From Candidatus Saccharimonadota bacterium (lineage in GTDB: Bacteria > Patescibacteriota > Saccharimonadia > Saccharimonadales > Saccharimonadaceae): a stretch of 61,124 nucleotides of DNA. Within the stretch, counting starts at the first letter, position 1. Each line of letters opens with the position of its first letter. Shown in pieces: positions 55,822 to 61,124 of the stretch. The translations under genes and the position numbers were made by a program. Location: positions 1-61,124 of the forward strand of contig JAFRWP010000011.1 in the NCBI GenBank assembly GCA_017437945.1, read 5' to 3'. The notes below the pieces were generated by a model. It did no database searches, was not told the DNA's origin, and was given only the letters and a program-made list of their open reading frames with translations.

Positions 55822-58275
55822 ATGCCAAAAATACAAATTCCAGGTTATCACGCAATCGTTGTGGACAAGATTAAAGTTGACCCGAAAAAGGGCCTAAACG
55901 CCGAGCAAGTGCGCAAGATGAAGCGCGCGGGCGCGATTAATGAATCCGTCAAACCGCCGAGCAAATCGGTTGCCGAAATCGTCCGCAGCAATGTACTGAC
56001 ATATTTTAACTTCGTGTTTTTGGTAATCACAATTATTTTGATTTGCGTACAAAGCTGGCGTGATATTACTTTTCTGCCGCTGATTATCGCGAATACGTTG
56101 ATTGGTATTTTCCAAGAAATCCGCGCAAAGGCCGTGCTAGATAAATTGACGATGCTGAATGCGCCAACTGCACGCGTAATTCGTGACGGCAAAGAGCAAG
56201 AAATTGTCGCCGAAAAGCTCGTGCAAAATGATGTTGTGGTGTTCCGCGCGGGCAATCAGATCCCGGCGGATGCGGTTATTTTGACTGGCGAAGTGGCCGT
56301 GAATGAGGCGCTCCTGACTGGTGAAGCTGACGAAATTCGCAAAGACAAGGATAAAGAATTGATGTCTGGTAGCTTTATTGTTTCCGGCGAGTGCATAGCG
56401 CAATTAACGAAAGTTGGCGCTGCATCATATATATCTCAGCTCACGTTGCAGGCAAAAAAAGTTAAAAATAAAGAACAATCAGAGATTATACGCTCGCTAA
56501 ACAAAATTGTTACGATTGCCGGTTTCTTAATTATCCCAATTGGCGGGATTTTGTTCTATCAAAGCCATTTCGTGAATAATCTCGACATGAAGTCGAGCGT
56601 ACAAAGCGCAGTCGCATCCGTGCTCGGCATGATTCCGGAAGGTTTATTCCTATTGTCCACCATCGCATTAGCGGTGAGCTCGATGAAGCTTGCACAGAAA
56701 AAGGTATTGCTACATGACATGAAGTCGATTGAAACCTTGGCGCGCGTAAACGTGCTTTGCGTCGATAAAACTGGCACGATTACCGAAAACACCATGGCCG
56801 TAAGCGACTATGAGCCAATCGGCAAAATGAAGAAAGCTGATCTGAATGGTCTACTTAGTGATTTCGTGGGCGCGCAGGCCGCAGATAATGCTACGATGGG
56901 AGCTTTGAAAGCGCACTTCTCTGAACCGGACGGGCGTAAAATTGTGTCAGTTTCTGGATTTTCTAGCCAATATAAATATAGTGGTGTGAACTTTGACGGC
57001 GAAAGCTACGTTTTGGGCGCTCCGGAATTTATTCTCGGCAAGGATTACGATAAATATCAAGAACGCATTGAGGGTTATAACCGTAAAGGTTACCGTGTGC
57101 TAATTTTCGGCCAATATGAAGGCACCGTGGAGGGCAAAAAGCTTGATCATGTATTTACGCCGATGGGGCTAATTATGCTAAGCAACCCAATTCGTCCGAA
57201 TGCAGTAGAGACATTTGAGTTTTTCAATAAACAAGGTGTAGACATTAAGGTGATTTCTGGTGATAATCCCGTCACCGTATCTGAAGTAGCACAAAAAGCA
57301 AAGATTAAGGGCGCCGAAAAATACGTCGACGCGTCAACCTTGCAGACCGACGAATCCATTGCGAAAGCAATGCGCGAATACACTGTATTTGGCCGCGTTA
57401 CGCCAGAACAGAAACGAAAGTTTGTTAAAGCCATGCAACGCGACGGTAAAATCGTGGCCATGACCGGCGATGGCGTAAACGACGTGCTCGCACTACGCGA
57501 CGCGGATTGTTCCGTGGCAATGGCGAGTGGTAGCGAAGCGGCAGCCCAAGCGGCTCAACTAGTATTGCTTGAATCGGATTTCGCGCGTATGCCAGACGTA
57601 GTTGCTGAAGGTCGCCAGGTCGTCAACAACCTCGAGCGTTCCGGCAGCTTATTCCTCGTAAAGAATGTTTTCTCGCTTATCACTTCCCTTATCGTAATAT
57701 TGTTTGCAATTACCTATCCATTAATTCCAGCTCAAATATCTCTTATTAGCATGTTTACGATTGGTATACCGGGATTCTTGCTGTCGCAAGCGCCAAACCA
57801 CGATTTAATTCGCGGTAGCTTCGTGAGTAACATTTTGAAGCGGGCGACGCCTGGCGGCCTGACGGATGTTATCCTAGTGGCCTTGATGGTGATATTGGGC
57901 AAGATCTTTGTTTTGCCAGATAATGATATTTCGACCGCCTGCACGGTCTTAATCGCTGCCGTTGGTATGCTGATGGTCTGGAGAGCTTCGCGCCCAGTTG
58001 ATTGGTATAAGAAAGCCTGCTTCATTGCCTGTTTAATTGGCCTGGTTTTCTGCTACATCTTCCTCAGCGATTTCTTCGGTATGAGCCATATTTCGCTTCA
58101 GACCGCCATTATTACGGGTGGCTTAATATTAGCTGCATTCCCGTTATTGCAAGCTATGCACAAGTTTATCGATTGGTTCTGGAAAGTTGGTGGAAGATTC
58201 ATTATCCGCGTACGTGATTATACACACGCTAACGAAATTCAAAATCCGTTCTCGAAGATCGACGAAGAGAATTAA
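55822..58275 (+). CDS. P-type cation ATPase, CtpE/YfgQ-like
   Basis: An 817-residue P-type pump. TGEAD actuator loop, membrane motif GMIPEGLFLLSTIAL, phosphorylation site CVDKTGTITENT, hinge TGDGVNDVLALRDADCSVAMASG and a long C-terminal membrane part. PEGLF without a second Pro is a feature I associate with the CtpE/YfgQ group, for which calcium uptake has been reported; the ion here is not proved. It ends two bases from the convergent fusion gene. Near-leaderless start, no Shine-Dalgarno. Confidence 0.88.
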   Translation: MPKIQIPGYHAIVVDKIKVDPKKGLNAEQVRKMKRAGAINESVKPPSKSVAEIVRSNVLTYFNFVFLVITIILICVQSWRDITFLPLIIANTLIGIFQEIRAKAVLDKLTMLNAPTARVIRDGKEQEIVAEKLVQNDVVVFRAGNQIPADAVILTGEVAVNEALLTGEADEIRKDKDKELMSGSFIVSGECIAQLTKVGAASYISQLTLQAKKVKNKEQSEIIRSLNKIVTIAGFLIIPIGGILFYQSHFVNNLDMKSSVQSAVASVLGMIPEGLFLLSTIALAVSSMKLAQKKVLLHDMKSIETLARVNVLCVDKTGTITENTMAVSDYEPIGKMKKADLNGLLSDFVGAQAADNATMGALKAHFSEPDGRKIVSVSGFSSQYKYSGVNFDGESYVLGAPEFILGKDYDKYQERIEGYNRKGYRVLIFGQYEGTVEGKKLDHVFTPMGLIMLSNPIRPNAVETFEFFNKQGVDIKVISGDNPVTVSEVAQKAKIKGAEKYVDASTLQTDESIAKAMREYTVFGRVTPEQKRKFVKAMQRDGKIVAMTGDGVNDVLALRDADCSVAMASGSEAAAQAAQLVLLESDFARMPDVVAEGRQVVNNLERSGSLFLVKNVFSLITSLIVILFAITYPLIPAQISLISMFTIGIPGFLLSQAPNHDLIRGSFVSNILKRATPGGLTDVILVALMVILGKIFVLPDNDISTACTVLIAAVGMLMVWRASRPVDWYKKACFIACLIGLVFCYIFLSDFFGMSHISLQTAIITGGLILAAFPLLQAMHKFIDWFWKVGGRFIIRVRDYTHANEIQNPFSKIDEEN

Positions 58276-58276
58276 A

Positions 58277-60265
58277 TTATTTATTCTCGTTAATAAACCA
58301 GTTAAATACTTCTGAGTCGAAGTTAATGTTTTTGAGCATGTTTTCGTGAAGCGAATTTTTAACGATTAAATCCCCGCCGATGGTATTTAGGAAGTTCTGC
58401 ATGCTAGTGCGATTTCTCTCACCCTCGCCGACAAAACCTTTAACTTTCGTATGAGTGAAGTTTGAAGCTTTTGGCTCTGCGCCAGCTACGCAACCGTTTT
58501 GGACATTCATGCTAATTACAGAAGCTGCCTTAAAGAATTGTGGATATTGATTGACCATGCACCACGTATGAGCTCCACCAAGACTATATCCGTAAATATA
58601 GATACGGTTTTTGTCTATACTATATTTACCAACAGTCGCATCGATTAAGGCCTTAATATTAGCAAATAATGAGCCGCCATTATAAGCATTATTATTAATA
58701 ACTGGCGAAATAGCGACTATCTTATTAGCATAGGTAGATGAATTATTCATTTGCTGAATAGGGGGCATATTTAGCATAGTCCTCTTTAAAGATTCAACGT
58801 TAAGCGCATTCTTACCCTCGCACGGATTAGATTGGCAGACTGTACCACGGAGGAAGACTAACAATGGCATGTTCGTCGTGGCATTATTTGGCACATGCAC
58901 GATTGCGCCCTTGACCGAACCTTGATCGCCCGCACCCAACTCGGAAGCGGTCATATATACATTGCTCTTAGCCTCAAAATTCGCCGGCTGCTGCCCCTGC
59001 ACAGAGCTATTATTGCCATTACTGCCATTGCTGTTATTGCTGCCTTTGGTGCCATCCGCGCCAATATCGCCGCCAGTTCTTGGCTTCCAAGAGCCGCCCT
59101 CATTCTTAAAGAAGTATTTCCATGGGTTTCCAACATCGCTGCCTTTACCAGTATAGCGGTAGATATGATATGGCTGTTTTTTGTTGCAGGCACAATATTG
59201 ACCGATACCTTTGCAATAATAAGAACCGGAAAGGAACTCTGTTAATCGCGGATAGCGACCACCAGAGGACGCCTCGGCAAGATTATAAGTTTTACCACCA
59301 TCCGTATAGCCGTAGCTACCAACATAGATAGCAACGTGACCATAAGTTTCACCGACTTGATCGGCCTGGAAAATGTCGCCCGGCATAAGAGTCGTACTGG
59401 TACCTTTGTTTTCAATCTCGGTCCAGTCTGGACTATTTCTGAACCACCTACCCATGCCCGTAGGTCCAGTCCGCGGGAATTTATTGCCGGCACTATCAAC
59501 GTTGAGCTTCAGTGAATGTAGAACGGTAGAAACGAAGCGGTCGCAGCTAGCGTAGGCATTTCCGGCCGTAAATGCACCATTTGGCACGATATTAAAGATA
59601 TCATAAGTAATGCGACCCCTGACGGCTCCACCCGTCTTCGTGTTGGCGCAAAGATGTTTTTTGCTAGCGCTCTTTACTTGAGTAATCCATTGGCTACCGC
59701 CCTGCCACCAACATTTCCCAATCGTGGTAGCTCCACCATATGACCTTTGCGAACGAGAACCATAAGATACTTTGCCGGAACCGTCTGCGGAAGTATCGAA
59801 GAATGGATCGAAACCTTCCTGCCAACTCTGAATTGGCCAAGACATCGTCGCAGCGGTTTTTGCGATAATATCGGTCATTGTTGCGCTACTCTCCGGATCA
59901 GTAGTAGGATCGCCAGTGCCGCTCGGTGGCAAATTAGCCACTTCTGGACAGATGCCGGAGTTCTGAGAATTATTCGCTACGCCACCAGGTAGGAGGAAAT
60001 CGGCGATTAAGGACATCCCGGCAAACACAACTATGCCAATAATAACCTCGACGAGCCGCTTCTTGGCTTTAGCCAACTGCTGGGCATTGTCTTTCGAGGT
60101 TAGAATCATAATTCCGGCGATAATTACGCCGATAGTTGCCAAAAGGATTATTCCGCCCGTAAGGAAGCTAACAACGTGGCCAACCATCTGAAAAATAGCG
60201 CTGCCATGACAATCATCGCAGACCTGGCCAAATAAAAGCGTGTCAATACATTGAGTAGCTGCCAT
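58277..60265 (-). CDS. Triple fusion: T4SS pilin-like / NlpC-P60-like / esterase
   Basis: A 662-residue protein. Residues 1-96 contain two membrane segments (about 31-54 and 71-92) with the spacing and TSKDNAQQLAKAKK linker of the small T4SS pilin-like family common in CPR genomes. Residues about 125-372 form an NlpC/P60- or CHAP-like domain with Cys241 (YASCDRF), His310 (YGHVAIYVG) and Glu331. A Ser/Asn/Gly linker (about 395-425) leads to an alpha/beta hydrolase (430-662) with nucleophile Ser561 (GYSLGG) and His640 (SLHEN). The frame is open to 60517, but that part is translated terminator repeats; TGG-TATAAT ends 7 bases before ATG 60265. Confidence 0.82.
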   Translation of the reverse strand: MAATQCIDTLLFGQVCDDCHGSAIFQMVGHVVSFLTGGIILLATIGVIIAGIMILTSKDNAQQLAKAKKRLVEVIIGIVVFAGMSLIADFLLPGGVANNSQNSGICPEVANLPPSGTGDPTTDPESSATMTDIIAKTAATMSWPIQSWQEGFDPFFDTSADGSGKVSYGSRSQRSYGGATTIGKCWWQGGSQWITQVKSASKKHLCANTKTGGAVRGRITYDIFNIVPNGAFTAGNAYASCDRFVSTVLHSLKLNVDSAGNKFPRTGPTGMGRWFRNSPDWTEIENKGTSTTLMPGDIFQADQVGETYGHVAIYVGSYGYTDGGKTYNLAEASSGGRYPRLTEFLSGSYYCKGIGQYCACNKKQPYHIYRYTGKGSDVGNPWKYFFKNEGGSWKPRTGGDIGADGTKGSNNSNGSNGNNSSVQGQQPANFEAKSNVYMTASELGAGDQGSVKGAIVHVPNNATTNMPLLVFLRGTVCQSNPCEGKNALNVESLKRTMLNMPPIQQMNNSSTYANKIVAISPVINNNAYNGGSLFANIKALIDATVGKYSIDKNRIYIYGYSLGGAHTWCMVNQYPQFFKAASVISMNVQNGCVAGAEPKASNFTHTKVKGFVGEGERNRTSMQNFLNTIGGDLIVKNSLHENMLKNINFDSEVFNWFINENK

Positions 60266-60272
60266 AAGCATT

Positions 60273-60278
60273 ATTATA
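60273..60278 (-). promoter_or_regulatory. -10 box abutting the triple-fusion gene
   Basis: TGG-TATAAT on the minus strand, 7 bases before ATG 60265; decides the start codon. Confidence 0.65.
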
Positions 60279-60301
60279 CCATTAAACGCGGCGCCACAAA
60301 C

Positions 60302-60364
60302 AGCCACCCATCGGTGGCTTTCATTCTTGCAAGCAAATGAAAGGCCACCCGTTGGGGTGGCCAT
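60302..60364 (-). repeat. 63-bp repeat, copy A: double hairpin terminator
   Basis: It contains two hairpins, GCCACC / GGTGGC and GGCCACCC / GGGTGGCC, joined by CATTCTTGCAAGCAAATG. It differs from copy B at 2 of 63 positions. It lies downstream of the 5S rRNA and upstream of the fusion gene. Confidence 0.85.
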
Positions 60365-60439: not shown

Positions 60440-60454
60440 GCGCTGAACGCAAAA

Positions 60455-60517
60455 AGCCACCCACTGGTGGCTTTCATTCTTGCAAGCAAATGAAAGGCCA
60501 CCCGTTGGGGTGGCCAT
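60455..60517 (-). repeat. 63-bp repeat, copy B: double hairpin rRNA terminator
   Basis: Second copy of the double hairpin, 11 bases past the 5S 3' end. On the minus strand GGCCACCC-CAAC-GGGTGGCC is followed by TTTCATTT, and the second hairpin by TTTTTG, fitting tandem terminators of the rRNA operon. Confidence 0.85.
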
Positions 60518-60527
60518 TTCATATAAT

Positions 60528-60632
60528 TCGGCATCTTGCTAGTTTCCCGCAAAGCAGTATAATCGCCGCGACCAGGCTTGACTTCTGTGTTCGGGATGAG
60601 AACAGGTATTTCCCTGGCGCTATGGACACCGA
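60528..60632 (-). rRNA. rrf: 5S ribosomal RNA
   Basis: About 105 nt. The ends pair over 8 bp (TCGGTGTC with GATGCCGA, two G-U). The conserved loop segments CATCCCGAACACAGAAGTCAA and the GCGGCGATTATACTGC region are present. Ends are set by the terminal stem and may be off by one or two bases. Confidence 0.93.
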
Positions 60633-60805
60633 GAAAAGACACTAAGGGCGAACCGAAAATCCAAATGGTTCTGTTTTAGTATCTTATCTCGATGTAAGAT
60701 GCATGAAATTTTAACTGACTTTGGTGTTTTTGAACACCAATTACTAGCTAAGTCTACTCCTTCTATCGACATTATGCAAGCATAAAATCAATAGAAGTGA
60801 CATAA
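60633..60805 (-). other. 23S-5S spacer with processing hairpins
   Basis: The transcribed spacer holds no tRNA. It contains a long imperfect hairpin at about 60757-60796 (CTTCTAT ... ATAGAAG arms, loop near TTGC) and a perfect TTGGTGTT / AACACCAA hairpin at about 60720-60741. These are likely processing signals. Confidence 0.55.

Positions 60806-61124
<319 letters not shown>

Follow-up and report, generated by a model that had tools for sequence, protein, structure and literature searches.

The analysed window, a stretch of 61,124 nucleotides from a Candidatus Saccharimonadota bacterium, encodes a 662-residue protein that joins a VirB2-like pilin module to an NlpC/P60-like cysteine peptidase domain and an alpha/beta-hydrolase esterase domain. 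In this phylum, such enzyme-bearing pilins form a large and apparently undescribed family, to which the protein belongs. The reading that we favour, with a slightly better than even chance of being correct, is that of a cargo-bearing VirB2-like pilin holding hydrolases on the cell surface for action against the host envelope.

Gene and domain architecture

The gene occupies positions 58277..60265 of the minus strand (662 codons plus stop) and is read as one uninterrupted frame from an ATG start codon at 60265 to the stop codon at 58279-58277. The coordinates and length given in the first-pass annotation were right, the strand being minus. A longer 746-aa frame, starting farther upstream, crosses two terminator-like repeats, and therefore the 662-aa start is preferred; it is also backed by a paralog on contig C5, which starts at the equivalent position (MATEQCIDTILFGQVC). 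An rRNA operon lies upstream on the same strand (end of 23S at 60801-61124, 5S at 60526-60633), with 260 bases separating 5S from the gene, and a P-type ATPase gene ending at 58275 is convergent with it. With these neighbours the gene is solitary and lies outside the pilin array. Two direct repeats of 68 nt, 96% identical (60297-60364 and 60450-60517), each holding two terminator-like hairpins, were found between the 5S rRNA gene and the pilin-hydrolase gene. A TATAAT hexamer on the minus strand (60273..60278), 7 nt ahead of the start codon, is a possible -10 element of a near-leaderless mRNA; a good -35 element was absent, and the hexamer was missing among the predicted sites.

The pilin module, recognized by Pfam matches, an AlphaFold2 model, and a tree, comprises residues 1-97 (59975..60265, minus strand) and consists of a Cys-rich N-terminal tail (CIDTLLFGQVCDDC) and two transmembrane helices, residues 23-56 and 61-91, with a basic loop in between. 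AlphaFold2 predicted a small beta hairpin and the same two long helices with a pLDDT of about 90, i.e., the hydrophobic two-helix hairpin with a basic loop typical of such pilins. When the whole protein was searched, residues 26-90 matched TrbC/VirB2 (E=1.4e-5, 25.7 bits vs. a Pfam cut-off of 27.9) and T4SS_pilin (E=9.7e-5, 22.8 bits vs. 26.6), while in the genome search the same stretch scored over the T4SS_pilin cut-off (27.1 vs. 26.6 bits) and a 58%-identical paralog cleared it well, with 32.2 bits. The model of the N-terminal domain aligned to the Aeropyrum conjugation pilin (8dfu) with a Z score of 7.6, which is weak for a hairpin. The helices and the two family matches agree with the first-pass annotation, which had seen here two membrane segments of the T4SS pilin-like type. 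The charges of the tail, the loop, and the region following the second helix are -3, +4, and -4, respectively. Since the loop is positive and the flanks are negative, the positive-inside rule suggests that both ends of the module are outside, and the catalytic domains would likewise be located outside the cell. Several homologues have a signal-peptide-like N-terminus ahead of the same N-terminal motif.

A linker with pLDDT <50 (residues 98-232; 59570..59974, minus strand) leads to the middle domain, residues 233-384 (59114..59569, minus strand). Pfam matches to NLPC_P60 or CHAP were absent up to E=5, and therefore the domain is described as NlpC/P60-like rather than filed in that family. A profile made of 40 Saccharimonadia sequences matched the NlpC/P60 enzyme MepS/Spr in PDB (E=2e-4). 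The model of residues 233-383 aligned to Tse1 (Z 9.3, 113 residues, 3.5 A), MepS (Z 8.4, 98 residues, 2.8 A), and CHAP enzymes, with Z scores of 7.5-9.3 overall, and has a papain-like fold with Cys at the start of a helix and His on the next sheet. The 40 relatives share Cys241, Gly296, Asp297, and His310 without exception. Of the three catalytic residues proposed from a first inspection, Cys241 and His310 stand, as does the fold, but Glu331 was rejected as the catalytic acid since its column is not conserved (Glu in 6/40 and Ser in 18/40 sequences). The fold and the invariant Cys and His are common to this domain and to NlpC/P60 (C40) and Tse1/Tae1 cysteine peptidases/amidases; it differs from them in lacking a Pfam NLPC_P60 match, and the Glu331 column does not provide a conserved third catalytic residue. 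The same NlpC-like domain occurs in long secreted-looking proteins (L024, L023, and L025) in which the pilin module was absent in the part examined; in one of them it follows GH3-like and amidase_3-like sequence, as judged by eye.

A Gly/Asn/Ser-rich linker of low pLDDT (residues 385-430; 58976..59113, minus strand) separates the peptidase from the esterase domain, residues 431-662 (58280..58975, minus strand), with Ser561 (in GYSLG), Glu616, and His640. The esterase profile matched Thermotoga EstA (3doh) in PDB with E=2e-20, and the same structure was the best match of the model (Z score of 19.9, 204 residues aligned, 2.6 A), followed by feruloyl esterases. Ser561 and His640, the pair named in the first-pass annotation, are invariant in 8/8 relatives; Glu616, overlooked there, lies in a column occupied by E or D in all eight and is probably the catalytic acid. 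Judged by conservation and fold, this is an alpha/beta-hydrolase with a Ser-acid-His triad. The fold, GxSxG, His, and acid are shared with Thermotoga maritima EstA, LC-Est1, and feruloyl/CE1-type esterases. The differences from EstA are the low identity (19%), the added pilin and peptidase, and RG at residues 473-474 in place of the HG found there and in relatives, so that the esterase activity may differ. With the Ig-like domain at its N-terminus, EstA resembles the relatives that combine Big_2 with an esterase. NCBIfam PHB-depolymerase-like models matched far under their cut-offs, and the name PHA depolymerase was rejected (NF050058, 57.9 vs. 150 bits). The same esterase domain (34% identity) is present in L183 (G000:C11:101329-101898), a 367-codon frame of the same genome with one N-terminal membrane helix and without the pilin module.

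The structure was modelled as two parts, since in a full-length alignment the esterase rows were misaligned. An ordinary anchor or a domain lacking triad geometry had been named at the outset as grounds for abandoning the proposed architecture; judged by pilin homology, fold, and residue conservation, it was not refuted on these grounds, although Glu331 is not conserved.

Pilin-hydrolase fusions and the T4SS pilin array

The genome itself encodes at least four further pilin-hydrolase fusions. The pilin is joined to Phage_lysozyme2 in a 378-codon frame (E=5e-17), to the phosphodiester glycosidase NAGPA in a 453-codon frame (E=2e-13), to two Big_2 domains and an esterase in a 650-codon frame, and to a tail without Pfam match, probably a C39-like cysteine peptidase, in a 401-codon frame. 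The paralogs are 48-58% identical across the N-terminal domain. Relatives of this domain were found in 281/295 genomes of the class, and at least 58 of the matches listed are in frames of 300 aa or longer. Within and beyond the class, pilin modules are joined to more than 10 hydrolase classes; the cargo elsewhere includes VanY, NAGPA, Peptidase_C39_2, GDSL lipases, Abhydrolase/PHB esterases, Lactamase_B, Y_phosphatase3, GH114, GDPD, and CHAP, with some of these Pfam matches scoring under gathering thresholds. Big_2 spacers separate the pilin and cargo in some fusions. The number of genes per genome is high, and the fusion content varies among relatives. A domain of the tyrosine-phosphatase family (PF13350, E=1e-30) following the pilin in L156:425-1522 would not be expected as the cargo of a surface protein. 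No relatives of the protein were found in viral contigs.

Several relatives carry an NlpC-like domain of the same profile downstream of the pilin. In L128 (G199), the C-terminal region following the pilin and esterase has no Pfam match but, by eye, looks similar to the NAGPA protein L094. Outside the class, L238 encodes both pilin+SLT+GDSL, a dual murein and ester cargo, and pilin+SLT+Amidase_2. A second pilin+NlpC-like+esterase protein was not found among the relatives examined. Therefore, the three-part order, first taken to be novel, is unique among them in its exact form, but the protein is not an isolated novelty, being one of a large family.

Some fusions lie within the T4SS locus. In three related genomes (G020, G026, and G005), tandem pilin genes fill a conserved locus bounded by an Hsp20-like gene on one side and a large VirB6-like gene on the other, and one of them encodes a 538-555 aa fusion in which the pilin is followed by Big_2 and then by an SGNH-like tail (weak DUF4886). 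This fusion-bearing array adjoins the VirB6-like gene, with VirB4 just past it. G005 and G026 are near-identical at the array, so that the in-array fusions represent at least two distinct cases. At the same place in the array, two other genomes (G017 and G032) have a plain pilin of 120-139 aa from the same tree group. The labels Hsp20-like and VirB6-like were assigned from sequence and the published locus; the VirB6-like array protein had no NCBIfam match. In G034, the ATPase farther along the locus is VirB4 (NF045971, 390 vs. 325 bits).

The VirB4 query found its target in 4/4 relatives (84-85% identity). In the genome's own assembly (G000), VirB4 was not found with this good query, and TIGR00929 gave weak ATPase matches only. 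Contig C8 of this assembly ends inside an apparent array, with an Hsp20-like gene followed by a truncated pilin, and hence a complete T4SS in this genome is suggested by the relatives only. In the same assembly, the VirB6-like query gave only paralogue-like matches at 33-38% identity. Two of these, G000:C9:7-840 and G000:C10:7-885, are truncated by the start of their contig, and in G000:C5:49468-55029 the frames are as long as 1283 and 1725 aa.

A tree of 120 pilin domains (92 columns) and a second tree that includes the window's protein were used to place the module. The fusions fall into two main sets. The N-terminal domain of the window's protein, over about 92 columns, lies on the side of the first array pilin, proximal to VirB6, with a bipartition support of 0.995 in the first tree and 1.0 in the tree that includes the protein. 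This shared ancestry with pilins of VirB4/VirB6 loci identifies the N-terminus as homologous to T4SS pilins, in agreement with its earlier designation as pilin-like, rather than as an ordinary anchor. The second fusion set is nested among the sequences grouping with the third array pilin, and support within both sets is often low; according to the tree, the fusions arose from two groups of array pilins. Double pilins of 222-246 aa, with two tandem pilin domains whose halves belong to different tree groups, were observed in T4SS arrays (L195:13647-14372, L197:12767-13432, L200:7594-8259, L201:8326-9063, and L202:4307-5032). A VirB6-proximal array pilin with a long N-terminal extension was present at L200:8262-9116 (285 aa) and L201:9002-9970 (323 aa).

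Possible roles of the protein and relation to known systems

The VirB2-like pilin arrays of Patescibacteria T4SS are described in PMC12102498 and PMC12857230. The N-terminal module is homologous to these pilins, being closest to the VirB6-proximal one; however, array pilins are described there as small, while in the window's protein linkers and enzymes add about 570 residues. Hydrolase fusions are not described in the main text of PMC12102498, and among open-access main texts we found no description of pilin-hydrolase fusions, a provisional result.

In the proposed mechanism, the N-terminal helical hairpin, a homologue of T4SS pilins, would have been duplicated out of the VirB2 array, as the tree suggests. 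The hairpin would span the membrane so that, in line with its charges, its two ends face outward and the peptidase and esterase are displayed on the surface. We infer the catalytic activity of both domains and their target from sequence: the peptidase may cleave the stem peptides of murein or have amidase activity, the esterase may remove ester-linked groups on an envelope polymer or lipid, and jointly they would loosen the envelope where the cells touch. The protein may enter the T4SS as a minor pilin, as the in-array fusions of relatives hint. The cargo variety, from murein peptidases, lysozyme/transglycosylase, amidase, and esterases to phosphodiester glycosidase, glycerophosphodiesterase, and GH114, is easier to reconcile with the host envelope than with the self wall alone. 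Location on a surface structure is plausible, as is action on the host instead of the self wall. Counting against a cargo-bearing pilin are the solitary gene and the absence of VirB4 from the assembly, in which contig C8 breaks off within the apparent array. The large C-terminal domain could block pilin polymerisation, and in cryo-ET of cultured Nanosynbacter lyticus a T4SS filament was not identified (PMC12206443).

The readings weighed against this one overlap, and our probabilities for them do not sum to one. One, to which we give somewhat less than an even chance, is that the pilin module is now only a membrane anchor, and the protein never meets the T4SS and serves nutrition broadly as a surface enzyme. 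The distance of the gene from the array and the lack of VirB4 in the assembly agree with this, as does the occurrence of many fusions as scattered single genes. On the other hand, the hairpin is kept complete and recognizable in dozens of fusions rather than being swapped for a simple helix, and some fusions are encoded within the array itself.

Remodelling of the self wall is a less probable explanation, in which the hydrolases on their pilin tether would stand in for VirB1. They would open the thin wall of the cell itself to let the T4SS or further surface machines through, while the esterase would trim polymers of that wall. According to PMC12102498, monoderm VirB1, a transglycosylase with CHAP, opens the wall for the T4SS, and in Patescibacteria it is often distant from virB4, which makes this the main rival. 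Pilin fusions with lysozyme, SLT, Amidase_2, CHAP, and VanY are consistent with such a role, but other cargo extends past murein (feruloyl-type esterase, NAGPA, GDPD, GH114, and phosphatase), and many genes per genome with variable content among relatives are unlike housekeeping. The monoderm VirB1 hydrolases (lytic transglycosylase and CHAP; PrgK, TgaA, and others) offer the parallel of a murein hydrolase functionally tied to the T4SS; unlike them, the window's protein has a pilin-hairpin anchor and an added esterase, lacks a transglycosylase domain, and is encoded away from a T4SS locus, its neighbours being a P-type ATPase gene and an rRNA operon. An assembly or frame artefact joining adjacent genes is highly improbable: the exact triple order is confined to this protein among those examined, but the frame is single and unbroken, the paralogs are 48-58% identical across the N-terminal domain, and similar pilin-NlpC, pilin-esterase, and dual-cargo proteins occur in many genomes.

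A further extension of the favoured reading, a cargo-bearing pilin directed at the host, is speculative and rather doubtful: Patescibacteria may build T4SS pili or pilus bases whose minor VirB2-like pilins bear interchangeable enzymes against walls and polymers, and this conjugation-type machine would bore through the host envelope, with the window's protein as a double-enzyme subunit. The epibiont Ca. S. epibionticum cannot do without its T4SS and pilin array (PMC12102498 and PMC12857230). Enzyme-bearing pilins offer a concrete and testable idea of how the T4SS, or proteins derived from it, handles the host wall, and the fusion family supplies many defined enzymes for assay. The fusions tie a secretion-system pilin to a surface-hydrolase toolkit in a phylum with very small genomes.
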